A stretch of DNA of 64,000 bases from Tomocerus qinae (lineage: Eukaryota > Arthropoda > Collembola > Entomobryomorpha > Tomoceridae): NCBI GenBank assembly GCA_020055645.1, contig CM034546.1:60326001-60390000 (forward strand), in the 5' to 3' direction. Every line of letters starts with the position of its first letter. The first letter of the stretch is position 1. Under the pieces are notes generated by a model that was not told the DNA's origin, did not search any database, and worked only from the letters and a program-made list of their open reading frames with translations. The position numbers and the translations under genes were made by a program. Of this stretch, positions 34,030 through 61,694 are shown one piece after another.

Positions 34030-34152
34030 ATGTCTCAGGACATTCAGAGGAATCTGGTTTATCTTACAAACAATTTGTCTAATTTGCAACAAATATTACT
34101 GCATTTGCGGGAACTTGACATTATATCTGAAAATGACAGAGAGGAAATTAAC
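34030..34152 (+). CDS. Exon 1 of predicted CARD-kinase-LRR gene: first half of CARD
   Basis: The coding exon starts at ATG 34,030 (A at -3, a good eukaryotic start context; no in-frame upstream ATG) and runs 41 codons to AAC followed by GTAAGT, a consensus 5' splice site. The peptide has the helix 1-helix 2-start of helix 3 pattern of a CARD: 'QRNLVYLTNNLSNLQQILLH', then 'LRELDIISENDREEIN', ending where CARDs have a Glu-Ile turn. The missing second half of a CARD is found at the start of exon 2, 20.1 kb downstream, in the same phase (0). CARDs assemble signalling complexes through homotypic contact. A TA-flanked MITE sits just upstream. Alternative: a separate gene with another downstream exon. 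Confidence 0.7.
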
Positions 34153-34599
34153 GTAAGTTTTAACAAACTATAACTTTTTATTGTAAGTAGCGAGTGATAA
34201 GTCTGATAGCAATTGTTGAAATAAATTTCATCGGTACCGTGATTACAAATGCCAAACCAACTGTACTCTTAGTACTTTGAACATGGAATATTTTATACCA
34301 CCAAAATAATGAAATTTTGCGTTAGTAATTGTTATATTATTCACTGTTTTCAAAAAAATCTGAATTGACGTGTAATTGGATGCCTAATGCAATAAATAGA
34401 CATTTTTAAGTGCATGATTAAATGCGTATTAATGCCAAATAAAGTATAAGTAGTATAGCATAATTTTTGAGTCATTTGTTATATTGACAGTCAATTTGAG
34501 CTAACATCTCTTTTTAATTAGTCTACTAGACACTATATTCACTTAATCACTCACTGTGCTGAGATTGAGGTCTTTACCTGTCCCGTTGAAGAATTTATC

Positions 34600-35640
34600 A
34601 ACATTATTTTTGAATTAATTAATTGTGGTAGAGTTTTTAACTCCTGACGGAAGATAGTTCCAATCATTAATGATTCTTTGCATCAATATCTAATCCTGAT
34701 CCTAATATACCTTTAAGGTTTCCTATGACCCTATGACCATTTCTGTATTCCTTCTCTACTTTTAAGAATTTTGAGTAGTCAATGTCGTAGTAATTATTGA
34801 AAATTTTGAACGCCTCAATACGATCACCTCGTTTTCTTCTTTCTTCGAGTGACACCGACTTAAGTATTTTGAGCCTTTCGTGGTATGACAAATGCTTAAT
34901 TTAGGGTAGCATACGTATAGCCATTCTCTGCACATTCTCCAGAATGGCAGATTCCTTTTTGCGAAGTGAGTTCCAGATTGAATAGCAATACTCTAGGCGA
35001 GGCCTAATAAATGTAATTATCAGTCTGCGGAGAGATGTGACATTGAGGTATTTAAAAGCTCTTCTTATAGCGATGCATGCTATTCTGCCTTTGCTTTCTG
35101 AGCAGCATGCATCTCATACTGCCTTGTAGCGGAGAGATTGTAGCTGAATAAGCTACATAAGTCACGTTCCATTTCACTGTTGTCGGGTTCTTCACCTTCA
35201 GACTTTTTTGACAGCGGCTTGTGTAGCCGTGTTAATACGTGCGTTTTTTTCTTATTAATCTCCATAAGTTGTCTTTATTCCATTTGGAAAGTTGGATTAA
35301 GTCTTTTTGTGTGGTTAGTGAGCCAGGGTTATTTTCTCTTACTGTAAATAATTTTGACTCGTCGCCATAAAGTTCCATTTCACTTTCTATTTGTTAATTG
35401 TTAGAGGACGTCATTGACGAATAGCTCGTAAAAAATGGCTGATATTACCCTCCTTGTAGGACTTCCGAAGTTACAGACCTGTGCGGTGGTTGACATTTCC
35501 CTGTTAGCTTTCACTTTTAAGGTGCGATTCTAAAGAAAACTTTCTACCCATTTAGTACACCGGCTTGACACTAGGTTGTTGCCACTGAATTTTTTCACAA
35601 GTAAATTTATCGACGCTTTGTCAAAAATGTGTTACAAACT
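34600..35640 (-). pseudogene. Degenerate LINE reverse transcriptase, C-terminal part (L2/CR1-like)
   Basis: Reading from 35,640 downward through several frame changes gives RT landmarks. They include 'KWVESFL' (degenerate), 'VKANREMS', 'ELFVNDV', 'LYGDESKLF' (decayed YADD block) and 'LIQLSKWNKDNL'. Then come 'EMERDLCSLFSYNLS', 'FIRPRLEYCYSIWNS', 'ESAILENVQRMAIRML' and 'LSYHERLKILKSVSLEERRK' (34,891-34,820). The final block is the typical end of CR1/L2-type polymerases. Stops and frameshifts make it inactive. It differs from the RNase H LINE nearby, so at least two LINE lineages have landed in this intron. Confidence 0.7.
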
Positions 35641-35748
35641 CTAAAAACTGTTTAAACGATGGTCTTTTACAGAGGAATTTGCAGCGGATAAATGTTAGGC
35701 GTATCTGTTGGTAGGGTCACAGTTTGAACCACTTTAAACATCGGACAT

Positions 35749-37690
35749 GTGTGTGTGTGTGTTAGTGGGAGAGTATGATCAATACTATTGAAGAGTAAAG
35801 ACACACTACCGCTCAAGGCGCGAGGTCTTACTTGCAGTTGCTCCCTGAACTTACTGTTCGGAGAAGCCACTCATTCGTCCTGCAGACATACAAAATGAAA
35901 GCAGAGACGACAAGGGCAACCCCGGTAACTCATCCACGTGAATGAGAAACTTACTCAGGTGATTGAATCTCAACTCGCTCAAAGTTGGGCATTCAGCCAC
36001 ATGGTGGACCGACGTCTCAAGGCTTAGTGCGCACAATGGGCAGAGCGGAGACGAATGATTCCCGAATAGATTATGATGCTTGGCCAAGGAGGAGAAACCA
36101 GTAATTAAATGAGTGAAGACCCTGAGCGTTCTTTTACTCAAACTTGTGAAATATTTGCTTTTGGTATATGAAGGTGAAGGGAAAAATAATTTTGTAGTTT
36201 TGCAATCTGAATATCTTTTCCAATTTTGAATTTTTAATTTGTTAAAAGCTTTGGAGATAACAGTTTTTGCGCATTGCGAAGAAAATGCCAGTATTGGTTC
36301 AGGACCAAAAACTGCCATTTTTGTGGATTCTTTGGCTAATAAATCAGCCTCCTCGTTTCCTATAATACCAGTATGCCTGGGAACCTATTGTAGGGTAAAG
36401 GATGCACTTTCTGAAAGTTTGTGCAAGGCTATGAAACATTCAAGTATCAATGCCCAGTCCGTGTAATTAGCCGCAAGGGCTTTTAAAGAACTGAGAGAGT
36501 CGCTGTAGATGACTACTTCATCTTTCCAGTCCAGATCTGTGATTTTAGATATGACCATAAGTATAGCTACCAATCCCGCTTGAAACACAGTAGCATATTG
36601 TCCTAAACATTGCTGTATGAAGATATGACTATCAGTGCTAGTAATTAATGCAGCACATCCTGCTAAATTGTCCATTTTCGACCCGTCTGTATAACAGACC
36701 AGTCTCTGGTTTGAAGGTTTTTCTGTGTCAAGTACAGTAAAATTTACCCATGAGGGCAGTTAAGGGAGTTGAGTCCATATGAAATTCCAACTCAGGCAAT
36801 TGTTTCAAAAGATTTGCAATTAGATCAACATGCGTTAATCTTTTAAGGCTCCCTCTCCCATACCAGGGCAGCCATTTTCCAGTACAACGCAATCGATGTG
36901 CTGTTGAAATAGCGGTTTTAGTAAGGAATATATCTATAGGCTCAATACCTACTATACATTTTAACGTTGCAGAGGGTGTACTATACATTGCGCTAGTAGT
37001 CATTAAACAGGCTAGTCGTTGAACACTAGCCAAAGTTGATATTTTAGATTTGTTGTGAACAGCCGTTAACCAAGAAAAAGCTGCGGAAGATAAAGTTGGT
37101 CTGACTACATCTGTATATGGCCACAAGGTGGTTTTTGGTGAAAGACCCCACGTTTGGCCAACAGCTCTTTTACATTGCATAAGAGCTGCTTTAACCTTAC
37201 CAGTTTTAACATTACAGTGGGTACTCCAAGTCAGTCCACTATCCAAATGAACACCTGGGTACCGCACATTGTTGACAAATGCAATATTTTTACCTCTTAA
37301 TCTGAGAGGTTTCATTTTGGGTTTTTTATACCGTGCATGAAATATAATAATTTCGATTTTGTCTGGGTGAATGGAAAGATCCCGCTGACTGCACCAATCT
37401 TCGATGATATTAAGGACTCTTTGCCTTAAAGCTCTCATCGTATCTTCGTCTATGCCAACCTGAAAAAGCCCAAGTTTATCTGCAAATGCTTGTCTATAGA
37501 TAGAGCTGACGTTGGACAGTTTCGCTAAGAGCTCATGGATGACTAGATTCTATAATAATGGCGATAGTACCCCCTCTTGAGGGCACCCTCTTTCAATTTT
37601 AATGCTTTGAATAGCGGATCCAACCTGCAATCCTCTGGAAGCTCTGATGTTTCCAAAGATGCATTAAATTTATTATAGTAAGCGCAAGTG
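35749..37690 (-). pseudogene. 5'-truncated RNase H-bearing LINE copy, catalytically dead
   Basis: A minus-strand copy related to the element at 44,292-48,730. Its 3' tail is the (AC)n run at 35,749-35,763. Going upstream there follow the C-terminal region with CPLCALSLETSVHHVAEC (zinc-knuckle-like), the RNase H segment (36,675-36,385), the thumb/linker (37,438-36,728) and the RT palm to about 37,620. In the palm the catalytic YADD has become FADK (about 37,470-37,480), the GCPQGG block reads GCPQEG and a stop follows shortly. The copy ends around 37,640-37,690, possibly after a small internal deletion. Frames are broken at about 36,330-36,390 and 36,680-36,730. Confidence 0.85.
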
Positions 37691-37719
37691 TTGCCGTCCC
37701 AGCTGCGATTATAAGCCTC

Positions 37720-38200
37720 CTATTACCATAAGCCGTCGCTCACTTATTCCGTCTTCCACTGTAGTGGAAACTAACAGCCGTTTTGACTAAGAGTGTTCAA
37801 TTTTATACCTCGACCCGACTCCCACAAACACGACAACCTTAAAGGAGTCAACACCCATCAACACAAAACCGGACACACCTCCACCAAAACAACAGTCGAC
37901 CACATGGAACCCACCACCACGAAAGCCGACTGCATGGGACCCAACACGACAGCTGACCACACCAAACCCAACACATAATAACACTACAACCGACTAAATG
38001 GGACTTCACGCCACCAACACTAGAGCCGACTACATGGGACCCGACACCTACAAACACGACAGCCCATCACACGGAAGCCAAAACCCACCAACACGACAGC
38101 AGACTACATGGGACCCAACAGAAAACCTGACCACCACTAACACAAGACCCGACTCCCACCAACACGACAGCCGACTCCCGACCACATGATTTATATTTAA
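37720..38200. repeat. Minisatellite with GACTACATGGGACCC / CACCAACACGACAGC units
   Basis: Imperfect units of about 35-40 bp combine 'GACTACATGGGACCCAACA' and 'CACCAACACGACAGCCGAC'. The leading part (37,735-37,845: TAAGCCGTCGCTCA...CGACCCGACTCCCACAAACA) is repeated in direct orientation at 41,826-41,912, so both derive from one dispersed unit. Confidence 0.75.
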
Positions 38201-38346
38201 CTTGACGGCGCTGTACGGATATCAGTTTTAGCTCGCCTGAATAAGGCAGCTTATAGAACCGCACAGTCTGTCCGTACGTCCGTCTGTCCGCCAACACTGC
38301 AACTTTTGAAAACATTCACAGAAATTGACCAAACTTGCCAAAAACC

Positions 38347-38528
38347 AGGGTTGCGGTTTGTCCGGATGAAATTGGTTTTGTCCAGTGGACAAAACCATTT
38401 CGTCCACTAAACATAACCATTTTATCCGGATAAAATTAATTTCATCCGGATAAAATCATTTTTTCCAGTGGATAAAAACCATTTTATCCAATTCGTCCAC
38501 ACCTTCCTATCCGGATGCCGCAACCCTG
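38347..38528. mobile_element. hAT MITE nested in the foldback's left arm
   Basis: The 182-bp element has ends CAGGGTTGCGG and CCGCAACCCTG and a perfect 8-bp target duplication CCAAAAAC (38,339-38,346 and 38,529-38,536). The interior is made of TTTTATCCGGATAAAAT-type palindromic units. Removing it and one duplication copy restores alignment of the left arm with the right arm, which proves insertion after the foldback formed. Confidence 0.95.
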
Positions 38529-38699
38529 CCAAAAACATTGCTAATGGCCCTGTGACGAACCCTATTGGTTTAGGTCAAAATCATTTAATAGGTTACCGAG
38601 ACACCGCGCACTCACTTTGTCTTCATTTTGATAGTCAAAGTGAAAAATGAGCTTTGAGTGGAGTTTGAGTTATGGGTACCTCATTCTTGGTTTCAAAGT

Positions 38700-38895
38700 T
38701 ATTTTGGTTCCGCTGCCACAGTCCTCTCTTTGTATTCGAAAGACAGTGGACCATATGTTGCATTACAATGGACCTCCCACGTTGATTTGCTCGACTCGAA
38801 GTTTGAGCTGAAGTTCAGGCTTTGTATTGCAACATATGATCCATTGTCTTTTGAATACAAAGAGAGGACTGGTAGCGGAACGATAGTATCAAGTT
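38700..38895. repeat. Palindrome inside the foldback
   Basis: GGTTCCGCTGCCACAGTCCT...TTGTATTC (from 38,706) pairs with GAATACAA...AGGACTGGTAGCGGAAC (to about 38,882). Arms are about 65 bp with a spacer of about 55 bp. Confidence 0.8.
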
Positions 38896-39234
38896 CAGTT
38901 CTTTTAAGTCAGAAACTAATAAACGTAGGGAAGTGACTTTATAACCACCAGAAATCTAAGTTGTTTATCAAGAACTGTATGTATTTATTTATTTTCCGAA
39001 ATCTGTAGGTAAAAATGTTCAAAAAGCTACAAAATATGTACAGAAATATGTACAAAAATACCAAAATATGTAGAAAAGGTACCCAAAAAAGGAAAACATG
39101 TAGAAAAAAAGCGGAAAACATATACGAAATTATGTACAAAAACCTACAGCAAGCCGTAACAGAAGCTCGCCTGAGTAAAGGGGACGTGTGCACATTTTTG
39201 GTTTATCAATAGAGGAAATAAATTGATTTTGATT

Positions 39235-39790
39235 ATTAAAGTGAACACTAATCCAAATTAGATTAATATTTATTCATAATTCACAATAAAAATAAATAAT
39301 TGATTCATATTGAGTATTAAAATCAAAAGAAAATCAAAATCGATTTAGATTTATATTGATTATCAAAATCAACAGAAAATCAAAATCGATTTATATTTAT
39401 TATCAAAATCAACAGAAAATCAAAATTAATAATTATTGAACATTACAATTAACAGAAAATCAAATTGATTAATATTGGCTATCAAATTCAACAGAAAATC
39501 AAAAATAGATCAATATTGAGTACCAAATAAATAAACAAAAATCCCAAATTGATTAACATTGAGTATCAAAATAAACAGAAATCCCACATTGATTAATATT
39601 AAGTATCAAAATAAACAGAATCACCAAACTGATTAATATTGAGTATCAAAATCATCAGAAATGTCAGAAAATCAAAAGTGATTAACAATGAGTATCAAAA
39701 TCAACAGAAAATAAAAATTGATTAATATTGAGTATAATAGTATAAAAATCAAAAGAAAATCAAAATTGGTTGATATTAACTATCATAATG
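39235..39790. repeat. 40-bp minisatellite
   Basis: Units of ATTGATTAATATTGAGTATC followed by AAAATCAACAGAAAATCAAA recur about 13 times, with substitutions and small deletions, inside the 38,225-40,229 foldback. Confidence 0.9.
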
Positions 39791-40239
39791 AAAAGTAACT
39801 CGAAAAATATAAATTTGACTATTAATTGCATATGAATGCGAAATAGATTTATTTCCGCCCTACAATAGTTATTTTCCTGTTATATTTACTTTATTATAAA
39901 ATATTAAATTTGGTCGAAGCGGAGTTAAATATTATATACTATCCGCTAACAATTCTTAGGAAACACAATTAAACTTTTAATGTCCATTTAATGCCAATTT
40001 TTCATTTTGACTATCAAAATGAAGACAGAGTGAGCGCGCGGCATCTCAGCAACCTATAGACCGATTTGAGCCAAAACGAATAGGGTTCGTCACTGGTCTG
40101 TAGGCATTGTTTTTGCTAAGTTTGGTTAACTTCCGTCGTTACGTTCAAAAGTTACAGTGTTGGCGAACGGACGGACGAACGGACGGACTGTGCGGTTCTA
40201 TAAGCTCGCTTCCTCAGGCGAGCTAAAACGTCACATGAT

Positions 40240-41070
40240 AAATATTTTAAATGGTTTTAGACAAATGGATAAAAAAGTTTATAAAGGCAAATTTAAATAT
40301 TGAAAATATCAAATTATTTTCTAAGTTGCGTTAAATTTCTCTAAAAGTTTCTACTTTGTGTGAAAATAAAGGTTTAATTTGCAAAAACCCAAAAATATGG
40401 ATAATAATGTTCTAATTGCCAAAATATGTATGAATAATATTTTTTAGGTTCCAAACCCTACAAAATATGTAAAATATAGTGGGTGTCAAAATGCTTGAAA
40501 CGTGTTGTTGTTGCTTGTGAAACGGTGACATCCGAAGTCTCAGGACTGAATTCTCAAGCATGAAAACATGTTTTTACCTAAATATAACGGCATGAATTTA
40601 TTACATTCAGATTCAGATTAGTTTTATTTAAGTGCCAATTAATTTTCAGTACAAACATATATTATTATACATGAAGTCTGTTTCTCAAATAAAAGCACCG
40701 AAGGCAAGCTAGTTACCTTACTCCCATAATCAATGCCGCGTCGTACCCAGTTACAATCGAAAGTCAGTATATACATTATGGTTTTAAGAGAACATCTCTA
40801 TACATAATAGGTATTGTATAGCACCACTAATGATGACATTAAATGACGAGGTCAAAACTTTCAATTTACCCTTTTTCGAAGATTTTTCGAACATCTTCGA
40901 AAATTTTCGATTATTTTAAAATGTTGTGTGGTGTGTTGACTGTTGGGCAGAGCCTAGTAAATTTATGTTAAATGATGTATATTCATAGGCATGCTCTAAA
41001 CGGTGGTAAAGCTAGACTGAACTAAAGAGAGCGCAAAGGTCGCTTGAAACGTCTATAATGGAACGGCTGC
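40240..41070. other. No gene recognised
   Basis: AT-rich sequence with short CGAA-TTTTCGA tracts (40,875-40,915). No domain, array or long inverted repeat is visible. Confidence 0.5.
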
Positions 41071-41072
41071 TA

Positions 41073-41748
41073 TCTAATATATAACAACAGTCTGGGATAA
41101 AGCAATAAATTTATTAACCTATCTATGTATGAATCTATCAATGTCCCCGTTTGCATCTGGTATGAGAGCCTAGTTAACATGAACATACTACGTAACGGAA
41201 AACCGCCTTCCACAGGAGTAACGCAGATGCTGACACTGACTGTAACACTTTTTGGTGCCTCCTCCTTCCATCAATACGTAATATATGCACGTTCCTTAAC
41301 GGCAAAAAAACAAAATGCGCATGCTCAATTCCTCTAAAGCACCGAAAAAAGTTTTGTTTCATAATTTTATCCCCATCCCAGCAATAATAGTTTACATTAC
41401 ATAAGTTGATCAACGGTGATTAAATGAAAATTATTAGCTAAAGGGACATTTTGAAATGATCACATGTACGCATTAATTGGCATTTCAAAACATCTAATAC
41501 AAATTGGTTCTGCTATGTCGACAAACTTATAAAGCATTTTTAGTAGTGCTGGTTTACTTTTTACTGCCTGTTAATTTTTTTGTGCCACTTTGCACACCTT
41601 TTTTGTATAGAATTATATATAACAGTATCGGTTAACATAATTAACCTTAGTGAATTACCAATGAATTTTTTGGAATTGTTTTTGTTACTGTAATGGGTAG
41701 CCTGCTTCTCTTGAGTGCTAGGTTCCTCCTTTAGCTGGATTTGTTTCG
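41073..41748 (+). mobile_element. Diverged non-autonomous Helitron
   Basis: It starts TCTAATATATAAC after an A. It shares GATAAAGCAATAAATTTA with the 19,376 copy near the 5' end. In its second half it shares CATTTCAAAACATCTAATAC, GGTTCTGCTATGTCGACAAA and TTCTCTTGAGTG with the minus-strand copies at 52,715 and 60,518. The 3' end aligns to about TTTAGCTGGATTTG (41,731-41,745) but the final CTAG has decayed. Confidence 0.65.
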
Positions 41749-41825
41749 GGATATCGTCTTAGATATAGGACAGTCATGGTGTCTGTGCCTGTTAATGCTT
41801 CAAACATAATCTTTCGTTTACTATA

Positions 41826-41912
41826 AGCCGTCGCTCAATTCTTCCGTCTTCCGTGTTGTGACAGACATTGTGCAATGTTCAAGCTCGACCCGACTCCCAC
41901 AAACTCGACAGT
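41826..41912. repeat. Dispersed repeat shared with 37,735-37,845
   Basis: TAAGCCGTCGCTCAATTCTT and CTCGACCCGACTCCCACAAA match the start of the 37.7 kb minisatellite region in the same order and orientation. 41,920-42,280 holds nothing else recognisable. Confidence 0.7.
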
Positions 41913-42289
41913 CTTTAATTCATGTTTTGATTCCCTCCAACAACATGCAAAGTCTGAATCTCTAACGAACATTCGACTTAATATAAGTAGCCATGTGGAT
42001 TTCTTGGCAACTTTGTAAACAGTAGTCTTCAACTTCTCTAATCAAATGTACTGGTCTAATTACTTTTGCATCATAAATAGATATAGGAAAAGTAACTGAA
42101 GAACCTATTAAAAAATAAATGGACATTCACCCACCTGTTGCAATTGATTCGATTTAAATATGTTATCTACGTCGTCCTCACTGTCGCTAATACCATGTTG
42201 GATACCTAGTTTAGGTTCTAAGTTGTTTACTGCAATAATAAACAAAGGTGTCATTCAATAATAAAATCATTGTATCCAATGAGAGATCT

Positions 42290-42955
42290 TGTTCTTAAAA
42301 ATTTTGTCATTCTTATGTGTAATGTATTAATGTATATGTTATCCCAATTTTTTAATACATGGCTAATGGCTATATTGTGGGATTCGGCAAACAAAAAAGA
42401 GTTAAAAATAGTTAGTAACGTGTTTAGGAGGGCTGGCCGTATGATCTACAAAAGGTTGTGGTATGAGAATATTAAAGAGTTGCTAAAAAGAGTACTATCC
42501 ATAAATATGATACTAGAGATAGAGATGAAATATTTTGTAAAGGTGTCCATAAAAATAAGTATAGTGAAAGGGTCTTAGAGAGTATTGTTTCTCGAACTTG
42601 GAACTGCCTTGTCTCCCATCTTCTTTTTCAGAGAATGATAATAGTATTTCATTCAGTAATGAAATAAAAATGTACCTACTGCAACAACAAATTTGCTAGA
42701 CACAACACTTAATTGATAACCCAAATTCTAAACCGAAGTGTACCTAGTATTGTTATTGATGTACCTAAGTATAGCAGATAAGATTAATGTCTTTAAATAA
42801 GTTGAGATATTCCATGTTTCCATGCCTTAAATGTAAAATCAGTTGTATGTCTACTTATGTAATTCTGTGACTTTTCAACTCAAGGGCTCATGTACACAGT
42901 GTACAGTACACTGTAATGAAAAGTTGATCCCAATAAATACATACATACATATAGC
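42290..42955 (+). pseudogene. LINE 3' fragment
   Basis: The frame at 42,340-42,580 carries 'WDSANKKELKIVSNVFRRAG' followed by 'RMIYKRLWYENIKELLKRV', resembling the last conserved block of L2/RTE-like polymerases (W-x-x-A-x-x-x-x-LKK, then QN-x-x-R). It is followed by a non-coding 3' region ending in AATAAATACATACATACATA (42,930-42,954), a plausible repeat tail. The upstream polymerase is missing, as expected for a 5'-truncated insertion. Confidence 0.5.
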
Positions 42956-42959
42956 ACTC

Positions 42960-43960
42960 TCCGGCCTTACGAGGGTTACGAGGTATACTTAAATGGCAAG
43001 TATAATAATACTTAAATTGGGCCCTATACTTGAAATACTTGCAAGTATTTTAAAATACTTAAATTATACTTAAATGAGTTTAAATCAGTAACAATGAAAT
43101 AACTTCATCCAGAACTCATTTTCAAATAAGTTTAAATATTGAATTTAAATCTTCACTGTCTTCAATCCAGTTAATTGCCAAAAATATTTTACAATTTTTA
43201 TAGAAACCTATTGATCACTAATCAGTGAAGGATATTAAATAGCAAACCTATTCTATTCGCAATTGTGTCACCAAACCGTTAAAACTAATTTTGAAGTTGA
43301 ATTTCAAATTCGCTTCGCGCGAACAGGTACCTTCTTTTGATTTCCTCCCTGATCTATATAGTAGTATGCATGAATATTAATATTTAAAAGACGAAATTTA
43401 CGTTATTATTGCTAATTTTCATCAAAAATCGTAAATTTTTCAGCTGCACACATATGATAGCGCGAAAAACGGTTGTATGACATTTGTAAACATTTACCAG
43501 CATGACGAGATAAGAATAGAGGTGGCATTGGCCAACGTGACCCAATCACTCCTTGAGGGTGTCTATTGTCCTGGTTTCCTCCCAGGTTCGTTGGCATTTA
43601 TTCACCCATGTTTCTATCATGGCGGATTGACATAATCAGGTAGGTCTCGTACAGATATTTACTCCACTTCGGTGCCTTGAGATGCCATTATGTCTCGTGC
43701 AGATTTCCACTCCAGTTCGATGCCTTAAGGCTTTTCCATGCATGGACTTGTTGACTTCTTATCCAGGTCGCATTTAAAAATCAAAAGCTTGAGGTTTGAG
43801 ATTTGAGCTTTGAGCTTCCTCAAGAAGTTCGTTAATTTCTCACATAGGTGCATGGGGTCAAATGAGTCCATCGTCTTGTTACACATTACACGCATTTTAG
43901 TTGATGTTGTTACTCTTCATGTAATATTATTATACTCGTTTTCGGTGGCTGCGAATTAAC
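42960..43960. other. No gene; short AT repeats
   Basis: 43,000-43,090 has repeats of AATACTTAAATTATACTTAA. The remainder has no array or domain; two 60-codon minus-strand frames look incidental. Confidence 0.5.
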
Positions 43961-43961
43961 G

Positions 43962-44206
43962 TGTATGGCACACACAGGAATCTTTGTATGGCAAGAAATT
44001 TCATCGAATAGTCGTACATTTGTATGGTACGTGGGTATCTAGACTCAGCAGTGTAACATGTTTGAAAGAACAATTTTGGCTTAGTACCATACATAGGTCC
44101 TTTACTTACCATACAATACCCCTCGGTTTTCTATAACGTACCATACAAATGTACGACTATTCGATGAAATTTCTTGCCATACAAAGATTCCTGTGTGTGC
44201 CATACA
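43962..44206. repeat. Perfect 70-bp inverted repeat
   Basis: 43,962-44,031 (TGTATGGCACACACAGGAAT...) and 44,137-44,206 are exact reverse complements over 70 bp, separated by 105 bp. The arms contain CCATACAAA-type words which also appear in the spacer (CTTACCATACA). Perfect identity implies recent origin or gene conversion. Confidence 0.95.
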
Positions 44207-44392
44207 AATTCATATTTTCCCGTTTTCGGTGACCAGCCGGAAAATGGCTGGCTAAAATGGCCAGTCGGTTGAAATTCTTTGTTAACCAGTGTGTGTGTGT
44301 TAGTAGGAGAGTATGATCATTACTATTGAGTAGCAAAGACACACTACCGCTCAAACCGCGAGGACTTACTTGCAGTTACTCCCTGAACAGCT

Positions 44393-47020: not shown

Positions 47021-47178
47021 AGCGCTGTTAAAAAGGACGCGAGTGTTTCTTAACTCTGCTTTTGATTCTAAGGTTCTTTTAGATTTGTACTTCCTAAGAG
47101 CTACTTTTAATTTTTTCCTAAGGCTAGTTAATTCCTGATTCCACCAGGGAGAAAGTTTGCCACCACTCCTGATGGTCT

Positions 47179-47814: not shown

Positions 47815-48122
47815 GTTATTAGATGTGACAATGCATGCCCTTTATCAGGACCCTCATATGCATGTACTTTTCCTTTTCGTGATAGGCCACAGACCTTTCC
47901 CTTGTAGGCATATGGTTCTTGAATGAAAATGACAAAATTATTCCCTAAAGGACGATTACTAATCAGAGCAGTAGCAGCTTTACAATGCTGCAGATTGGCC
48001 TGCAAAAAGCGGAGTTTACAAGAAGAGTGATCTACTGAGTCGATAATATTGGTGGTTGCCGCCGCACTATTTCCAATAGTCGGCGTATGTACCTGTGTTA
48101 TAGTGCCAGGCATTTGAAACAA
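47763..48122 (-). CDS. LINE endonuclease, N-terminal part (frameshifted)
   Basis: The frame starts at an ATG (48,122) and reaches the first endonuclease blocks: 'LRFLQANLQHCKAA' (Asn of motif I, about residues 37-50) and 'FVIFIQEPYAYKG' (catalytic Glu, about 68-80). It overlaps the next frame near 47,763-47,814, where a second indel shifts the reading frame. Together with 47,179-47,814 it makes one endonuclease domain of the expected length. The ATG is the likely pol start. Confidence 0.85.
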   Translation of the reverse strand: MFQMPGTITQVHTPTIGNSAAATTNIIDSVDHSSCKLRFLQANLQHCKAATALISNRPLGNNFVIFIQEPYAYKGKVCGLSRKGKVHAYEGPDKGHALSHLITWKSGLFAPFGVEIWLP

Positions 48123-48738
48123 ATTCGCCGCCGCCTCACCAAAACTGCATTTCGGCCGCCGCCAATAATGACATTAAGTGACGATTGCCACTTACACATA
48201 TTATGTCGAATAAAGATAAAAGCAACTGTCATTATCCAACAGTGCTTAAGTGGAAAGGCTATTTGATTACTATAGAAAATTGACTTGACAGGCCAGATTA
48301 GAAATGTAATTATTGAATATAAAAAACAGTTTAGTGTAAATAATGAATGCCTATAATTAATGACGAATGAACCAGATGAAATCACGTAGAATAGAAAATA
48401 GAAAAATAGCAAAAGTTGAAATGAGACGTACATAGTGTACAGTATGTAGTATAGTGCAGACACAGTATAAATTGTATGCAAATACATCGCCTGCACAGCT
48501 GCAATATTAGGCTTATGACTATGCCTAAAATTGAAAATTATAAAATTTGGTGAAATAATAAAGTAGGACAAAAACTTCAACTTACCGTGTGAAGATGTCC
48601 ATTTTACCATACCTTCCACTGTTTTCCGGTAAGTTTCTACCCCTGGGGGTTGGTGTAAATAATTATTTATAATAAAATTCAGCCCGTGAATTCAACCAAA
48701 ACTCCATCCCGCTGCAAAGAGCGCGGGAGGAACCAGTG

Positions 48739-48857
48739 GCTAAATTGTCTTAAATGGCTGGCTTAAACGGCCGGTCGGATGAAATTCTTTGTTAACCAGT
48801 GGCTAAATTGTCTTAAATGGCCGGCCTTTAAATTGGTAAACTTAAATGGAGATTGAC
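48739..48857. repeat. Target-site repeat GTTAACCAGTGGCTAAATTG
   Basis: The unit (GGCTAAATTGTCTTAAATGG plus flanks) occurs twice between 48,737 and 48,830. Its broken half lies on the far side of the LINE at 44,225-44,291 (GGCTGGCTAAAATGGCCAGT ...). The LINE therefore inserted into a small pre-existing tandem array. Confidence 0.75.
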
Positions 48858-49073
48858 CAGTGTTCGGTGACCAGCCATTTTAAGCAGCCAGCCGGCCGGC
48901 TAAAATGGCTAGGCGGCTGGCTAAAAACCTTGTTAGCTGGCTAAAACCGAACTACAGGGTTCGGAGACCGGCCATTTTAGCTGGCCGGCTGGCTAATATG
49001 ACTAGCCGGCTGGTCAAAAAGCTTTTTAGCCGGCTGGTCAAAAAGCTTTTTAGCCGGTTAAAAGGGAACACTG
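48858..49073. mobile_element. hAT-type MITE, CAGTGTTC termini
   Basis: The 216-bp element begins CAGTGTTCGGTGACCAGCC and ends GGTTAAAAGGGAACACTG. It is flanked by AGATTGAC (48,850-48,857) and AGATTAAC (49,074-49,081), an 8-bp duplication with one mismatch. The interior is repeated GCCGGCTGGCTAAAA units. Termini and interior resemble the 4,378-4,626 element, so they are probably one family. Confidence 0.8.
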
Positions 49074-49084
49074 AGATTAACGAA

Positions 49085-50460
49085 TTTGATCTGATTTTCA
49101 TACCCCTATGGAAACAGCCTAGAGATGATATCCAAAATGACTTTCTCACAGGGCAGGACGTTGTAACAGCCTCAAATACGTTGTTTTCACTTTAATAGCA
49201 TAGGCTTACGGGGCACCGCTCTGACTTCGACAAAAGTGTCGCGCCCTGTACTTAGATCTTTTACTGGGACAGCAATACATTGGCTTAAATTTCATCGATA
49301 GACAGTAGACTATTTAGTAGATCAATTTCTGATGCCTAAGCAAAGTGTATTGAAATGTAAAACAAAATCAGAACTGGTAGTCTAGTTACTACAAAATGAT
49401 ACATACAAAACAAACATTTATACAGGAATACCGACAGAATCCCTTGCGCAGCTAGCAATAGCATGCATTGTTGCATGAGCTTGAGCTAAAGTTTGTGCCA
49501 ATGCCAATAAGCTCATGGTGCTAATGCCAATCATGTTTGCTGGTATTTTCTTGTCGCAAAATAGGGTGCATCATTGAGTATTTAGTTCACAGTAGTTTGA
49601 TCCCCCATGGCTACTCCTCCACATACAGTAATGCAGTACCCAAAGTAACAAAAATTGCTTTGTGAATAACTTTGGTCTTGTAGTCATGACAAGTGGGATT
49701 TGACCTGCGCAAATATTTGCACATGCCTTTTAGCTTGGCAGTCGCGCAAAATCTTGGCAGATTCGCAACACCAATCACAGTCCGTTATTGACTGCCAAAC
49801 TCCACATTCAGCTTGGCACTTTGGAAAAGTTTGTCAAATCGCTCAACTGCCCAAGTGCCAAATTTTCACTAAAAGCAAATTATATCTACCAAACTACCAA
49901 TGTAAATAGACTTGGGGTCAGTTGTACCATCAACTTTTGCTTTTTACTTTGCCCTTTTGTAGGCCCTAACCTGTGACGTATAGCTAAGCTGCTGTCAAAA
50001 AATTGACCCAAAATCCCGCTTTTCATTTTAGTTAACATTGTCCACTGGTTCGTTGCATATCAATTACAAATATCAAACTGCTTATTATGATTAGATATTT
50101 TTGGCAAAAAACCCACCCGCTTCACTTAAAAAATCCCTGGGTTTATTAAAAACATACAACAATGTGCACTTAAATCTCCATCTAGATGAGCAAAGACATA
50201 CTAATTTTCTCATATTTCTATTCAAACATGTAAACAAATATACAATCAGGCGGAAACACACTGTAGCTTCTACCCATTTACGTACAATAAATGTATCGTA
50301 TCCAGACGACTTAGTTAGTGTGATATATTAGTTTTATACAAATCGTTGTGAAAATTCTATTGCTGTATACATAATTATTTTTAATTACATTTTCAATTCA
50401 TTGCTGTACTGTTCACAATTGAAGCTCCAAATTTGAAGGAATTTCATTAAGTCAATTTAA
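49085..50460. other. No gene recognised
   Basis: A moderately GC-balanced stretch to about 49,950, then AT-rich. Open frames up to 76 codons (for example 50,101-50,331, +) show no domain. Direct word repeats TTGGCA/TGCCAA occur at 49,730-49,870. Confidence 0.5.
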
Positions 50461-50466
50461 TCAGTA

Positions 50467-51183
50467 GGGGAGAGTGCTGTCGGTTGTCCGAGTTAAGATT
50501 AATAGCTAAAAAACAATAAAACCTAATTCAAATTTTTATAAAAGTCATGGTTTTATGTTCAGAGAAGTATGTCTAAAACTTCTTGGATTTTACAATTTTT
50601 TTGCGGTTAGAAAAAGATGAAAACGAATGCATCTACCATTTCCTAGAAGAAAACAATGTTTTCAGTGATGCAAGACACTAATGTTAGCAAATTAAACTGT
50701 AAAAACGTAGAGTGGACATATTATCTTAAACAAAACCATAAAGTATTTGGTTTTATTTTTTTAACCATTAGTTCTAATATGGACAACCGACAGCATACAC
50801 CAGTCGGACAACCGACAGCACAAGCCTATTTTAGTAATGACTTATTTTCCCCGGAAGGGGCATGAACAATAACCGATAATTTATATCAAATGTCAATTAT
50901 GAATATCAGTACTTTTAGTCAAAAAATTATTAACTTTTAAAATTAGTCACAGCGGCTTTAAATCAAAAGTTTGCTGACCATAAAAAAGTTACTTTAAAGG
51001 TTCAAAATCCGTATTTTAATTTTTTAGCCGTATTTTCCAGCGGATTTTTAAAATATTTTGTGACAGTCTCCATTAAAGAAACTTATATGTATGCTAAAAA
51101 TCACAGTTCATACTAACAAGTATTACTCCTAATAATGGTAGTCGGACAACCGACAGTACGGGACAACCGACAGCACTCTCCCC
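50467..51183. mobile_element. TA-flanked MITE with repeated GGACAACCGACAG motif
   Basis: The 717-bp element has inverted ends GGGGAGAGTGCTGTCGGTTG plus TCC, identical on both sides, flanked by TA (50,465-50,466; 51,184-51,185). The terminal word GGACAACCGACAG recurs at 50,781, 50,805, 51,144 and 51,161, and inverted at about 50,477. This gives several internal and subterminal copies like multiple transposase-binding sites. The TA duplication suggests a Tc1/mariner-type source. A 69-codon frame (50,656-50,865) crosses the internal motifs and is unlikely to be a gene. Confidence 0.88.
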
Positions 51184-51189
51184 TAAAAT

Positions 51190-51985
51190 ATTATAATGAA
51201 CAGTTATTCAGTAGTTGTTATCAAAATAATAGTATAGATACTCAAATAAAATTGCATGTTTGCTGTGTTAAAATATGTTAACAAAAAACTTTTGTGTTTT
51301 AATTATTGTTTTATATGCGTAAGTAATAGTAATTGCAAGATTCCACTGATGTTATTATCAGCTGTAGTTTTTCTGTATAGTATAGGCTTGCGTTTATGCC
51401 TATAGTTATATAAAAAACCCTTAAACCCAAAAAACCCGGGGTCGTGGGTTTTTTTCTAAAAAAATCCGGGTTTTTCGATACCTTATTTAGGATGGATGCG
51501 TGACGTTTGATGTCACAATGAGGATGGCTGATTGGAGGATTGGAGGGTTGGTAAACTTTGCTAGCTAGTTAGAGTGTGTGTACTTTATTTAATTTTGTTT
51601 ACTAAACAAAGGCACTGAAAACTGTAGTTATTTACTTCTATTACCAATAGGTTCCGTGAGACCTACATTCATATTATCATCCGAGGTGGGCAACAAGACG
51701 GCATCCTCTTTAATCAATGACTGTTCCATTTGTGACTTATGGTTGCACTGTTTTAACCTTTCTAATCCTTTGCCAACTTTAGTTTTTGCGTAATTTTATG
51801 CCAGTAATCATTTGGTTCATTAATAACATTAGATATTCCACAAGACATGAAGGAATGTACTATATTATCCATTGAAATGCTATCCCAGGATTCTCCGGTC
51901 TAACTGTAGTCTTCAGGAAATAGCAATTTCCTTCTTTCGTTAGTTAGTTTAATATCCTCTGGTGTTGTAACTCCTTCATTCATTA
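51190..51985. other. No gene recognised
   Basis: Includes a CCCAAAAAACCCGGGGTCGTGGG-like homopolymer-rich stretch with imperfect inverted symmetry (51,412-51,480). Otherwise AT-rich without coding signal. Confidence 0.5.
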
Positions 51986-52014
51986 TATTGGTATTCGAAA
52001 ACATTTAAAAATAT

Positions 52015-52275
52015 GCGGAAAAGTTTGAAGTAATTTGATAATATTATTCATTATTCATAAAAATTCAAAATTATTCTAAAATATTCGAAAAAGTTCGAAA
52101 TTATTCTCAACTATTCGAAAAAGTTCGAAATTATTCAAAACTATTCGAAAAAGTTTGAAATTTTACAAAACTATTCGAAAAAGTTCGAAATTGTTCTCAG
52201 CTATTCGAAAAAGTTCGAAATTATTCAAAATAGTTCGAAAATATTCGTAAATATTTAAAAATATTCGAAAAAGTT
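52015..52275. repeat. About 30-bp minisatellite, ATTCGAAAAAGTTCGAAATT
   Basis: Units of ATTATTCAAAACTATTCGAA followed by AAAGTTCGAA recur about eight times with drift. Similar words at 305-360 suggest a shared simple-sequence bias rather than a specific relationship. Confidence 0.85.
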
Positions 52276-52714
52276 CACATTCACAGTGGTCTGATTGTCA
52301 CAATGCTCACAATGATAGGAAATTAAATTCGATTAATATTAGATGTCACATAGAACAGTCAGGGATGACAAGTATAATATTTCGGCTGACATAAATAGTG
52401 AAATACATCACTTTATTTTGCGAAATATTTCACACCCAATTTTGATGAAAAGGAAAATAAATTGAAATAATTAGCCGGTTTGTCATTTTATTTTATTTTT
52501 TACCATTTTTTTCTGTTCAAAATCAAAAAATACAGTTAATTAAACAGACCCACTACTATCAGAAAGGGAAAGAGTCTAACACTCACTTTTCCTCGTGGAA
52601 TGTAACACAATAACTTACTTTTAATTTATTTTTTCATTATTTTCACTTTTAAGAAAAAATAGTTGAGAAGTGATAAAAATGTCAACCCTGAAAACAGTAG
52701 ATTAATATTGACTA

Positions 52715-53633
52715 CTAGTGAACCCAGCTAAGGGGCAAATCTACCACTCAAGAGAAATTCAACAGTAATAAAAACAATTTCGAAATTCGAAAACATCCCA
52801 TTAGGTTATTATGTTAACTTTGTAACTACAAAGTATATTTAAATTAGTATACTTTTATTTTTTACAGTGGTAAACAAAATTAGCCAAAATTAGCTGCAGC
52901 CCCAAATTCCTGATAAAAAGGAATTTCCTACACCAAATAATAATAACTGTAGATTGTAACATCAAATACAGAGAACAATGAAAGACTCTATTTTCGAAAA
53001 AGCTCCCACAAAGTTACCAAAAAGCTCCCTTTGAAAATCAAAAACATTCGATTCCCCGTGGGATTTTGGAAAAACATACAAAATCCATGAGTACAACTTA
53101 CGAATAAAATATTTTTAAAGAATAAATAGTGGTACCCAGTGCTGTTATTTAATTCTACAAAAAGATGTCGCAACTGGCACAAAGGAATCAAGATGGTAGT
53201 AAAAAGTAAACCCAGCTAAATAATTTTGTATAAGTTTGTCGATGTAGCAGAACCAATTTGGATTAGAAGTTTTGAAATGCTATTTAATACGCAAATTACT
53301 ATCATTACGAAATGTTCCCTTTCGCTAATCATTCCCATTCGATCACCCCTCACCATATCACAAAATAATCATCTTATGTAAATTTCTATTTTTGTTTTGA
53401 TGTTATCATACTATAGGCACCCAGTACCATTGCTGAATTTCAAAATGATTATGCATATTATCATTGTCTAATTTCGAAATAAGCAAATGTTAACCCATAT
53501 TGGACTTCCTTGTTTTATGAAACATGTGTTGTATACGCGCATGTGCAATGCAACAAAATGCCGCATTGTCCATGGCATAGATAGATACATAGATACCTGC
53601 GACATAGGAATAAATAATTTTATTATATAGAGA
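52715..53633 (-). mobile_element. Non-autonomous Helitron (copy A)
   Basis: Read on the minus strand, 919 bp starts TCTCTATATAATAAAATT after an A and ends CCTTAGCTGGGTTCACTAG before a T, with a CCC-TTAGCT-GGG mini-stem before the end. It is over 95% identical to 60,518-61,405. The main difference is about 30 extra bp (53,506-53,534). No coding capacity; the 67-codon frame shared by both copies is incidental. Near-identity of the two copies suggests recent mobilisation. Confidence 0.9.
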
Positions 53634-53639
53634 TGAAAA

Positions 53640-54267
53640 TAAAAAGCTATACCATGAATAATATAACATGTTTGAACATATCTTTCACGTGGAAAATAAT
53701 TATGTCAAAAATACAATGGAGCCACTCGACTACGTGTACCCTTTATTTTAATGTACACTTTCCTTTATTGACAACTGCTAAAATCTTTTATAAAAAAACC
53801 GCCAGTTTTTTACGCGAAAACAGCCACTTTTCTTTCTTATAATACTAATTCTTCAATTCTTATACTTCTTTCTCATAATACTACATTCTTTTATGCTTTG
53901 CTCTGCCAAAGCCTTTGTACGAACTACCAAATTCTTTTGTTTTACATCCGCTTTCAATATTACCCATTGAAAACAGATTGATTTGGAACCTATAACGAGA
54001 TTTTATCGGTTTTAGTAGCATAAAATTCATGAAATTCCTTTAGGTGATGTAATAGTACTCGCTGGGGTGGGTGGGGTACCCCACTTTAGGATCGGTTCTT
54101 TCAGCCTTGCAGAGAGTCGTCTTAAGTTAGAGCATTTAGGATCAGTTTAACGTTTTGAGAAATAACAAATATGCGTAAAAAAGTTAATTTAAAATGTTTA
54201 TTTTAAATTATTTACCGCATTGTTGTTCGATATTTTATTATATTTTATATATTTCGATGATCTACAG
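53640..54267. other. Distal end of intron 1; no separate gene
   Basis: AT-rich sequence with short TTCTTATACTTC-type repeats (53,830-53,890) and a GC-rich GGGGTGGGTGGGGTACCCCAC patch (54,064-54,085). It leads into a pyrimidine-poor but acceptable acceptor ending CTACAG at 54,267. Confidence 0.5.
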
Positions 54268-55512
54268 AAATTATCAACAAACATGGAAAAAAATGATAAA
54301 TTGTTGACGATGCTTTCAAAACGAGATTGGTTGGAAATCAAAAGCAAATTTTTGAAAATATTAAAAATTACCCATAATGAACATTGTGCCAAAAAAATCG
54401 AAACAAGCATCGGGGGACAGCATTTTGACACAAAATCTACTGTCCCAAAACTGGAAAATGAAATTAAAACCAAGAAAGCAGAGTCAACAAATCTGCCGAA
54501 TGAATCAACAGCGATAGCTGTTGAACCAAATAACAATATAGTAGAAACTTGGAACTACACAACTGAAGAAATATTAGGCGGCGGATCATGCACTGTGGTC
54601 ATTGGGGCACAATGTAAAACCGATTCCAAAAAATACGCCATTAAAATAATTCCTAATCAAAACGACTCTTCAGATAACGAGAAAAGCTTAAGAGAGTCGC
54701 GAAACCAGGCGAGTTTGAGTCACAGAAATGTTGTTAAATACATATCCTCCGATATGTTTTCGTTATCCACGCAAAAAATGAAAGAAATTTTAAAATGGGA
54801 GCTTGTTGGTAGTACACAAACATTGAAATCTGCTCATAAAGAATTTGCAGCTAGTTTTGACACAGCAAAGTCACTTGGAAGTCACCTTAAAGGTCTGTTT
54901 ATAAAAACTGAAATTTGTGGTGAAACATTGAGAGAATGGCTTCTAGATCAAATAAAAAATGAAAAAAGTGCCAAAGATACAGAATGCAAGCTCATCGGAC
55001 AGGGAATAGTTGATGGTATAAATTACATCCACTCTAAATCAATACTTCACCGTGACCTGCGACCAGAAAATATCTTCTTTGCCAAGTCACAATTTACTCC
55101 TCCTGTTAAAATTGGAGATTTTGGTTTGTCCAACCAAATTGAAAATCAAGACGAAACTCAAACATTGACCATGGAAATCGGGAATTATCAGTATCGAGCA
55201 CCTGAGGTTAACGAGAAAACCAAAGATGGTAAAGCTAAATATAGTAAAGCAGCTGATGCATATTCGATTGGATTGATCTTGTCGGAAATTTATGATCCTC
55301 AACCTGTTTCACAATTGAATGTAAAATTCAGCACGATAACATTAACAAGAAACACCGGGGAGAAGATTAAAGAGACAGTACCTTGGTTAAGCCTTGTTAT
55401 ACTGAAACTAACGGAGAAAACACCAGCTGACCGGTTTGATAAAGATTCATTTGGATCACCACTGCCGATATCTTTTACACCAAGAGACGATGCAATGCTT
55501 CCTTCTAAAACC
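54268..55512 (+). CDS. Exon 2: second half of CARD plus eIF2alpha-kinase-like protein kinase
   Basis: 415 codons, phase 0 at both ends, between an acceptor (CTACAG) and a GTAATT donor. The first about 47 residues (KNDKLLTMLSKRD, then WLEIKSKFLKILKITHNEHC) fit helices 4-6 of a CARD, completing exon 1. After an Asn/Ser-rich linker comes a kinase domain (about residues 137-445 of the predicted protein). It has a glycine loop LGGGSCTVV (third Gly replaced by Thr), YAIK (K167), an alphaC Glu in RESRNQ, and a roughly 50-residue insert after beta4. Then follow LFIKTEICGETLREWL and YIHSKSILHRDLRPEN (D304; usual Lys is Arg306), KIGDFGLS (325-327) and APE (352-354). The LFIKxEIC-xTLxxWL and GINYIHSK pattern is that of PKR/PERK/GCN2-type eIF2alpha kinases. 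If this exon is considered alone, the first ATG is 54,283. IRE1 was considered as an alternative family. Confidence 0.85.
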
Positions 55513-56586
55513 GTAATTAATTATATTTTTTTATATAAACTCTACACTCTACAAACATTTTTTATTTATGCATGACAATGCATTTAGTGCTATCTAGTGA
55601 ACTTTTTCCTGTGCTAAGCGATGACATTTTATTCTGCGACGAATCGAATCGATGTTTACTAACTTTTAGGGCTTAGCCGTATCTTCTATCTGTCCCAAAA
55701 ACAGATAAGCTAAACGAAAACAGACTACGAAAACAGGCTATTTCGTACACAAAACGAAAAAAGTGGTTATAAGTAGGCGGTAGCGGTAGGCATAATGCAC
55801 CGTATATAGCCTAATGCTTAATAGCCGAGCTTGGAGCCGTGTATTTGACCACCTTTATAGGACGGCCGTTGATGTTCTAGTCAAACGTAACTCATGGATT
55901 CGATCATAACTGACACCAAAAGCAAAAAACGGGATGTGGGAGAGGTCTTAAACTGTTTGGTACCGAATGGCGACACTCAATGGCCACCAAAAATTTATGT
56001 CATGCCCGAAAAAAACATTTTAATTCATTTTAACAACAGTGCATTTCTAACAAAAACTTTCGTATATTCTTATATATTTTGAAATAATTTCATATATTTT
56101 TAATTAATTTTAATTAATTTTAATTATTTTGTAATATTTTCAAATATTTTGGATTATTTTCAAATATTTTGGATTATTTTCAAATATTTTGGATTATTTT
56201 CAAATATTTTGGAATATTTTCAAATATTTTGGAATATTTTTAAAAATAGTTTGCAATATTTTCCAATATTTTTAAAAATAGTTTGCATTATTTGATTCAC
56301 ATCTAATTTAATCCAAAGTTTAGTTGCAAGTCAAATTTCTAAGAACGCCGAATCCAGAAAACTTCAGAAAACTGATAGGGTGTCAAATTTTCTAAACATT
56401 AATAAGGCTGTAGTTATATTGATTAGAAATTAGGAATAGATTTCGCCAGATACCACAATTTCTCACCATTGAGGAAAAGTCATTTCACCGATCGATGTTT
56501 TCACTGACATCAGAAGAGTTTCTCCGTTAAAAAAATGTTTATCCAGTCAAATAGAAGTAATAAATTCTATTATGATTATTTTACAG
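55513..56586 (+). other. Predicted intron 2 (1,074 bp)
   Basis: GTAATTAATT donor after 55,512 and TATGATTATTTTACAG acceptor before 56,587. Both flanking exons are open and in phase 0. Without splicing, the exon 2 frame reads into AT-rich sequence and stops after 21 codons. A 62-codon frame at 55,894-56,082 inside it is not needed and lacks obvious splice sites. Confidence 0.7.
56090..56285. repeat. 20-bp AT minisatellite in intron 2
   Basis: Units of TTTTCAAATATTTTGGATTA recur about eight times with small changes. They are preceded by TTTTAATTAA repeats. Confidence 0.9.
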
Positions 56587-57963
56587 AAAACTGGAAGCTT
56601 GACCTCAGGTTCTGTGGAACTACAGCCAGATCAGCTTTCAGCACCAGTGGGTGAAATTGCCGTTGTACAAAAAGATGTTAATGAAGCAATTAGAAGCATG
56701 TTCGCCATGTCCACCGCTAATAGCATTGATAGGTACGCACTAATAGCAAACAAAGACAAAGCAGATTTAAATTATAACGGTGAGTCAAAAAAAATCCAAC
56801 TAAGTCACTGCCATATTCATTTTGAAAATCGATTACCAAAAGATTTGCACGAATTATGCTTAAAGTACATAAAGTTTATTCAAAAAAATAAACCCGAGCC
56901 TGATTTGGAATTGGTCTCATGGATCCCCAAAACAGTAAAATTTCTCACAGTTGATTGTTATAATAGCACGCTGATAACTTTACATGCTAGTAGACTGGCA
57001 TCTGTCGAGCACTATATCAATCTTAGTTGCTGCAATATAGATGTTAGTTCCATGACTCACAAGATCGGTCCAACTGATCTCAAATTATATCGGGTTTCAT
57101 TCATTCGAAACAAAAAAAACCTTAATAGGGTCCTGGTAAATGACTTTTTGGATATACTAAAAATCGATAAATTGACACTGAATTATAAAGACGAAGAAAA
57201 TATTAACATCAGCATTGATTTGAGTGAAAAATCTGCTTCCATTCTGTATCTGGAACTAAACAATGTAAAAGTTGAGAATTGGAAAAAAGCCGAGTGTCAT
57301 GTCCACAAACTCAACTTATGGAAAATACCTTTTGAAGAAAAAACAAAAATGATAATAAAAGAATTAGAAACCAGCATGTCTACTTTGGATGTAGCATGTC
57401 TGCCCCCAAGTATAGAAAAGCTCGATTTAAGAAAAACCAAAATTGTTTGCACTCGTAGGACAGAACTTCCAAACTTGAAACACATCAAACTAACCGCAAC
57501 TGAAAGCCATTTTCATTTGTTTGACAATTCGCCGTTATTGACCCACATTGATTTCTATAAAATGGAAACCGTGGATGTAGATTTATTGCCAAAAAATGTA
57601 ACACAAGTCAGAATAACCAATTTTTCAGAATTAAGTAATACTATTATTTCTGGAAAAATAAAGTCTTTACATAAACTTGTTTTGGTAGATTTACCGTTTG
57701 AAACATTAATAGAGGCCTTGAAACATTTTCAACCTATGGAACTCGTGGTTTATAGGCCCACAGTAGAAACAAAAGATTTGATGGCATTAATAAACAACGA
57801 AGTGCCCAAAATTTTCATTGGGGAATTTAATTGGGAAAATGAAAATTTTGAGTGTACAATATCTAAGCACGTTGAAAAAAAATCCAAATTTTATTTGTTC
57901 GCTGAACGACGCGGAAGATCAATTGAGAAATCCCAATTCCATAAATTAAGGGAAATATTTTAA
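56587..57963 (+). CDS. Exon 3: C-terminal LRR-like domain of the CARD-kinase gene
   Basis: 458 codons plus a TAA stop at 57,961-57,963, opening right at a consensus acceptor in the frame needed to continue exon 2. After about 75 residues of linker, the protein shows about 12-13 irregular repeats of 20-25 residues with an L-x-x-L-x-L/V/I strand pattern. Examples are 'LPKDLHELCLKYIKF', 'IPKTVKFLTVDCYN', 'SASILYLELNNVKV', 'PPSIEKLDLRKTKIV', 'LPNLKHIKLTATES', 'SPLLTHIDFYKME', 'LPKNVTQVRITNFS' and 'SLHKLVLVDLPFE'. This resembles a divergent LRR solenoid, a common ligand-sensing module. No transmembrane helix or signal peptide is visible, so a cytosolic protein is likely. A separate gene starting at a downstream ATG is possible but the matched phases favour one 914-residue protein. 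Confidence 0.75.
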   Translation, partial: KTGSLTSGSVELQPDQLSAPVGEIAVVQKDVNEAIRSMFAMSTANSIDRYALIANKDKADLNYNGESKKIQLSHCHIHFENRLPKDLHELCLKYIKFIQKNKPEPDLELVSWIPKTVKFLTVDCYNSTLITLHASRLASVEHYINLSCCNIDVSSMTHKIGPTDLKLYRVSFIRNKKNLNRVLVNDFLDILKIDKLTLNYKDEENINISIDLSEKSASILYLELNNVKVENWKKAECHVHKLNLWKIPFEEKTKMIIKELETSMSTLDVACLPPSIEKLDLRKTKIVCTRRTELPNLKHIKLTATESHFHLFDNSPLLTHIDFYKMETVDVDLLPKNVTQVRITNFSELSNTIISGKIKSLHKLVLVDLPFETLIEALKHFQPMELVVYRPTVETKDLMALINNEVPKIFIGEFNWENENFECTISKHVEKKSKFYLFAERRGRSIEKSQFHKLREIF

Positions 57964-61610: not shown

Positions 61611-61694
61611 CTACACTAAATTGCATTTTATTGTAAATTTACTTTACAAGTACATGAATATTATGAATGATCAATTAATGAAGATTCTGTTTTT

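Follow-up and report, generated by a model that had tools for sequence, protein, structure and literature searches.

A predicted gene joining a CARD, a PKR-like kinase and an LRR on an NLR-like frame in the springtail Tomocerus qinae

The locus and its encoded domains

A 64,000-nucleotide stretch of the genome of the springtail Tomocerus qinae (contig CM034546.1; C1:60,326,001-60,390,000 in our own numbering of the genome), referred to here as the window, carries on its plus strand a predicted three-exon gene that joins a CARD, a PKR-like protein kinase domain and an LRR region. Exon 1 (34030..34152) supplies the ATG and the first half of the CARD (41 aa) and terminates at a GTAAGT donor. Intron 1 (34153..54267) is 20.1 kb long and contains retrotransposon sequence inserted on the minus strand. 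Exon 2 begins with the second half of the CARD (54268..54417) and continues into the kinase domain (54556..55434, approximately residues 97-389 of the exon). Intron 2 (55513..56586; 1,074 nt) runs from the donor ACC/GTAATT to the acceptor TTTTACAG, and exon 3 (56587..57963) encodes a linker and then an LRR solenoid, with the stop codon at its end. An earlier note on this DNA had proposed three open phase-0 exons, and this model holds: the exons measure 123, 1,245 and 1,377 nt, their frames are open throughout and their lengths are consistent with phase 0. The predicted product is, with somewhat better than even confidence, one cytosolic protein of 914 residues in the order CARD, PKR-like kinase, LRR, for which all three exons would be joined in a single mRNA.

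The CARD can be recognized fully only when its two halves are joined. Exon 1 alone matched the Pfam CARD profile at 18.9 bits (E 0.0015), below the cut-off of 23.9, and the first 50 residues of exon 2 alone gave no Pfam CARD match. Exons 1 and 2 together scored 37.0 bits (E 3.6e-9), in a match that spans positions 4-84 of the 85 in the profile. Control acceptors were plus-strand sites after position 34,200 with a pyrimidine before the AG, an upstream stretch that is at least half pyrimidine, and 50 open codons; this gave 18 sites, 17 of them other than 54,268. Exon 1 joined to each of these 17 scored only 16.4-19.7 bits, with no real gain over exon 1 by itself, and the earlier assignment of the two CARD halves to exons 1 and 2 is thus borne out. 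In a sequence search of solved structures the joined CARD also matched the CARD of CARD8 (E 4.8e-4, residues 6-69) across the junction, which falls after residue 41. The window gene therefore has the N-terminal death-fold domain of an NLR.

The kinase domain of exon 2 is complete (Pfam Pkinase, E 4.2e-38), and the solved chains nearest to it are PKR and PERK, in agreement with the description of a full eIF2alpha-kinase-like domain in the earlier note. Of 7,995 proteins scored in a protein search, 106 had an E value of 1e-3 or better. The best relative, P0004, is an unnamed protein from a 2 kb contig (E 2.9e-68, 42% identity), and P0005 is a Folsomia candida record named 'interferon-induced dsRNA-activated protein kinase, partial' (E 2.4e-65, 43% identity). 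In a tree of 14 kinases (a 15th, P0087, was left out because its cut-out was too long) the window kinase, P0004, P0005 and a second Folsomia protein share a group, at 98/96, with the PKR of a fish and the PERK-like kinase of a mite, and the eight other kinases fall outside it. Structure matches and tree together place the domain nearest to the group of PKR, PERK, HRI and GCN2. No double-stranded RNA (dsRNA)-binding domain was found by Pfam in the three exons. The HRD and DFG motifs, the ATP lysine and the alphaC glutamate, all of which have roles in catalysis, are retained. The window kinase also conserves 65 of the 67 columns that are invariant among 16 other springtail-type kinases (14 paralogs from the same genome, P0004 and P0005). 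Its two deviations, Phe108Cys and Gly109Thr, are adjacent, and through them the glycine-rich loop (54577..54600) has lost its Phe and its third Gly.

A Pfam check of the joined model, which the earlier note had suggested, recovered the CARD and the kinase; exon 3 had no Pfam match, LRR profiles included, and no relative in a word-based search of protein databases. Its structural models are of low confidence (mean predicted local distance difference test scores of 45.5 and 52.1), and they give structural matches to LRR proteins. Seven LRR units are predicted at 57418..57822, with strands starting at exon 3 residues 278, 299, 320, 340, 363, 385 and 408, a spacing of 20-23 residues. Searches of the T. 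qinae genome itself covered 334 Mb in 115 contigs, and with exon 3 they gave 93 matches, namely the window and at least 92 others at 34-44% identity, mostly over residues ~140-458; the open frames that hold them are 223 to 2,029 codons long. The count is a lower bound, since 92 of 560 candidates were scored, and a few places yield two rows. Most of the matching rows have no internal stop and some do. A FNIP-type LRR profile reached 22.2 bits in one relative (cut-off 21), 20.6 and 19.9 in two more and 15.1 in a fourth. By homology to this family and by its strand spacing, though not by a direct Pfam match, the LRR-like array of the earlier note is upheld, and the window gene has the C-terminal LRR of an NLR.

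Two parent families in the same genome

Ten of the 92 exon 3 matches were examined as loci. In all ten a longer frame (497-2,029 codons), mostly NLR-like, terminates in the LRR, and in nine a second CARD half homologous to that of exon 2 lies upstream of the LRR, at 46.7-52.4% identity. A first CARD half was found in three of the ten stretches; at the other loci this exon may be too diverged or may fall beyond the stretch examined. All three first-half exons measure 120 nt, start with ATG, end at GTAAGT in phase 0 and are 52-55% identical to exon 1 of the window, and in each case the second half starts the next exon. The CARDs of these three relatives align to that of the window without internal gaps, the window intron lying one codon further on, and the equivalent intron is 1.3-2.4 kb long as against 20.1 kb in the window. 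Two of them, when joined, scored 30.1 and 38.8 bits.

Seven open reading frames (ORFs) from the ten loci were scanned with Pfam, and five contain NB-ARC above the cut-off. In the sixth AAA_22 reached 27.3 bits against a cut-off of 27, and the seventh, L016, contains mainly TPRs; TPR-type matches in the other frames were below cut-off. Judged from the sequences, this is an NLR-like family whose layout is CARD-NB-ARC-TPR-LRR, with some variants. In exons 2 and 3 of the window gene Pfam gave no match to NB-ARC or NACHT even with E values up to 10 allowed, so that the gene does not show the central STAND nucleoside triphosphatase (NTPase) of an NLR. Both of its ends derive from this one family, with NB-ARC and TPR absent and a PKR-like kinase between. 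A large cluster of CARD-NB-ARC-TPR-LRR genes at C1:27.9-38.6 Mb holds 65 of the 91 listed C1 LRR rows (the window included; one C14 row and one weak second piece are left out). The frame at L016 (L016:1661-7747, minus strand; 2,029 codons) has two LRR blocks and TPRs and looks like a single NLR-like gene.

The kinase has a different source. A search of the genome with exon 2 gave at least 101 matches (101 of 344 candidates were scored), and the best 20 besides the window are 47-56% identical to it. An HEPN-like N-terminus of the type seen in P0004 and P0005 was detected by tblastn in 13 of 30 kinase loci, the window among the 30 (L020, L021, L024-L028, L031, L036, L039-L041 and L048), although all Pfam HEPN matches were below cut-off. 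The window kinase belongs to a second expanded family, often composed of an HEPN-like domain and a kinase. P0004 and P0005 contain an RNxxKH stretch that resembles the motif of HEPN ribonucleases.

Members of the two families also lie close together elsewhere. Among 27 close kinase places, the window included, four besides the window have an LRR on the same strand within 40 kb downstream, at 4.5, 5.6, 7.0 and 29.5 kb. Two of these four were examined. At L050 (C1:34,519,500-34,529,400) a kinase exon lies upstream of an LRR frame that also contains a spectrin repeat, and NB-ARC was not found in the stretch examined; at L049 a kinase exon lies upstream of NB-ARC and LRR. Both are possible larger kinase-LRR proteins. 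At L036:1006-2709 a first-half CARD exon comes after an HEPN-kinase exon, and the two may encode a kinase-CARD protein that is RIPK2-like in order. These predicted gene models suggest that the genome combines the same modules more than once. The results point to two expanded families in this springtail, NLR-like receptors (at least 92 further LRR matches) and HEPN-like/PKR-like kinases. To our knowledge, NLR-like receptors were not expected in this branch of the hexapods.

A kinase in an NLR frame and its alternatives

The earlier note had proposed that the protein couples CARD and LRR functions to an eIF2alpha-type kinase. The order of CARD, PKR-like kinase and LRR is supported, mainly by the NLR-like genes of the same genome that share the split CARD and the LRR, and the eIF2alpha output is not supported; what was missed is that the scaffold is an NLR-family frame without its NTPase. 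The gene may have arisen on a CARD-NB-ARC-TPR-LRR frame, with a kinase from the HEPN-like/kinase family in its middle. From the structure of the two families and by analogy with the biology of NLRs and PKR, the LRR would sense a ligand or be restrained by one, and the CARD would gather copies of the protein into a cluster or filament. Such clustering would juxtapose the kinase domains, much as in the dimerisation of PKR, and the kinase, in place of the NTPase switch, would phosphorylate itself or neighbouring CARD partners. This LRR-regulated kinase assembled by its CARD is the reading that we prefer, with somewhat better than even confidence. A bolder form of it, in which LRR sensing and CARD assembly directly activate a PKR-like kinase seated in an animal NLR scaffold in place of the NTPase, has slightly less than an even chance; a receptor and its RIPK2-like kinase would then be merged in one polypeptide. 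The most likely use of such a protein is in innate immunity. If the reading is true, a different domain that self-associates and can be switched is able to stand in for the NLR NTPase, and the gene is a natural test of NB-ARC function.

Known systems resemble the predicted protein in parts. NOD1/NOD2 and the CARD-NB-ARC NLRs likewise have an N-terminal CARD and a C-terminal LRR, which in the window are homologous to those of an NB-ARC family in the same genome, but the window gene has a protein kinase where NB-ARC or NACHT would be. RIPK2, a RIP-type kinase with a C-terminal CARD, also has kinase and CARD in one protein; in the window, however, the CARD is N-terminal (the reverse order), the protein has an LRR as well, and its kinase is closest to PKR/PERK rather than RIP-type. 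PKR and the other eIF2alpha kinases share with it the kinase family, an insert before the hinge and the stretch LFIKTEICGETLREW, whereas the window gene has HRDLRP in place of the HRDLKP of PKR, as well as lacking a Pfam dsRNA-binding domain and differing at the Thr487 position and in the glycine-rich loop. P0005 and P0004 belong to the same kinase family and differ in their HEPN-like N-terminus; in these records, which are partial or short, neither a CARD nor an LRR was found. Plant NLRs with integrated domains can also have a kinase inside an NLR-type scaffold, but they keep the NTPase beside it. In amphioxus, hybrid receptors such as an LRR-caspase are described as products of domain shuffling that shortcut the receptor to an effector enzyme (PMC2575513). 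The receptor-effector shortcut is the same, but the enzyme is a caspase and not a kinase, and the accessible portion of that source has no CARD-kinase-LRR protein (PMC2575513).

Several observations weigh against the receptor-kinase reading, and the junction of exons 2 and 3 is its weakest link. The donor of intron 2 is weak, scoring 2.2 by a consensus matrix, and 22% of the GTs on the plus strand of the window score as high. Kinase ends were readable in 24 of 29 other loci, 17 of which have a phase-0 donor scoring 6.1-13.0; these donors lie 19-20 codons after a conserved Arg, compared with 26 in the window, and are thus 6-7 codons earlier. Two overlapping kinase loci have a donor 15 codons after this Arg and L041 has none. 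L020, L021, L038 and L045 have no donor at the kinase end and their frame continues; their tails are the most window-like of all, and L020 is the nearest kinase by identity. Most of the kinase family is thus predicted to splice onward near the kinase end, and the members nearest to the window kinase are not. The changes in the glycine-rich loop may reduce kinase activity. Because the window is the only locus, among the 101 scored matches, in which CARD through kinase occupies one exon, the gene may also be a recent or failing fusion. Finally, the order CARD-kinase-LRR was not found outside this genome in word-based protein searches, and no paper on it came up in searches of an open-licence library, which is weak evidence of absence.

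The main rivals are an integrated decoy and a pair of genes, and the decoy is live alongside a working receptor kinase, though we consider it unlikely. The kinase would then serve as bait, copied from those HEPN-like/PKR-like kinases that are targets of pathogens; interference with it would be sensed, the CARD would signal and catalysis would be minor. Kinase decoys occur in plant NLRs, and the decoy would fit an NLR-like scaffold, a kinase that originates in a separate expanded family, and two changes of family-invariant residues side by side in the ATP-binding loop. However, the HRD, DFG and ATP lysine are intact and nearly all family-invariant sites are kept, and without NB-ARC the usual NLR switch for reading a decoy is absent.

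That exons 1-2 form a CARD-kinase gene and exon 3 belongs to a separate LRR gene downstream is rather unlikely. Two genes would account for the weak donor, past which the exon 2 frame extends 20 codons to a stop, for an ATG upstream of the acceptor in the open frame of exon 3, and for the four closest kinase relatives that do not splice at the kinase end. Yet the coding signal ends where the donor lies: in a codon model whose training set was the proposed exons without the opening 114 nt of exon 3, the log-odds per codon drop to -0.29 immediately after 55,512 (the 5th percentile of stop-free noncoding stretches is -0.24), and no AATAAA or ATTAAA occurs between 55,513 and 56,558. Ahead of 54,268 and of 56,587 the log-odds stay close to zero (-0.03 and 0.06), and they reach 0.21 in the 38 untrained codons that open exon 3 (95th percentile 0.16). 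The phase-0 donors just after the kinase in 17 of the 24 readable loci, and the LRR that terminates a longer frame in all ten sampled loci, also argue against two genes, and most of all the descent of the flanking CARD and LRR from the same parent family, where both belong to a single gene, favours one.

A true eIF2alpha kinase, which would stop translation upon stimulation of the LRR or CARD, is improbable. PKR and PERK are its best solved relatives and the tree places it with them, but it differs at two sites that are constrained in PKR. In human PKR, Thr487 and the activation-loop residues Gly450 and Thr451 are among the few highly constrained sites, according to PMC11556786. At the position of Thr487, in helix alphaG, the window has Val (Val347 of exon 2, codon 55306..55308, from alignments). 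The paralogs have Glu in 13 of 14 and Asp in L024, P0004 has Glu and P0005 Ile, so that none of the 17 springtail-type kinases aligned has Thr; the mite PERK-like kinase and the fish PKR in the same alignment do. The Thr451 position is Asn and Gly450 is retained. The eIF2alpha output of the earlier note is therefore unsupported, and eIF2alpha is unlikely to be a substrate by the known docking route. Given these residues and the altered glycine-rich loop, the protein is probably a kinase that acts on another substrate or on itself, or else a bait.

A pseudogene, or debris of NLR and kinase genes that came together by chance and grew through transposons, would fit the 20 kb retrotransposon-bearing intron, the stop-containing copies in both families and the lost glycine-loop residues, but is highly improbable with frames intact over 914 codons, splice sites in phase and all but two of the family-invariant kinase sites retained.

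Other elements of the window

Intron 1 contains two non-long-terminal-repeat retrotransposon-like copies on the minus strand. The copy at 35851-37549 has a broken reverse transcriptase (ORFs 35851-36384 and 36728-37549), and that at 44393-47841 encodes a reverse transcriptase, RNase H and an endonuclease. Downstream of the gene, an ORF on the plus strand (61671-62747) has a weak PHD-finger match (17.9 bits against a cut-off of 24), and its tail resembles a retrotransposon endonuclease by eye. Long tandem arrays occur at 3246-3789 (24 bp x 23), and 17422-18639 (23 bp x 53), and at 8843-9648 a pair of adjacent arrays with a 133 bp unit seem to be inversions of one another.

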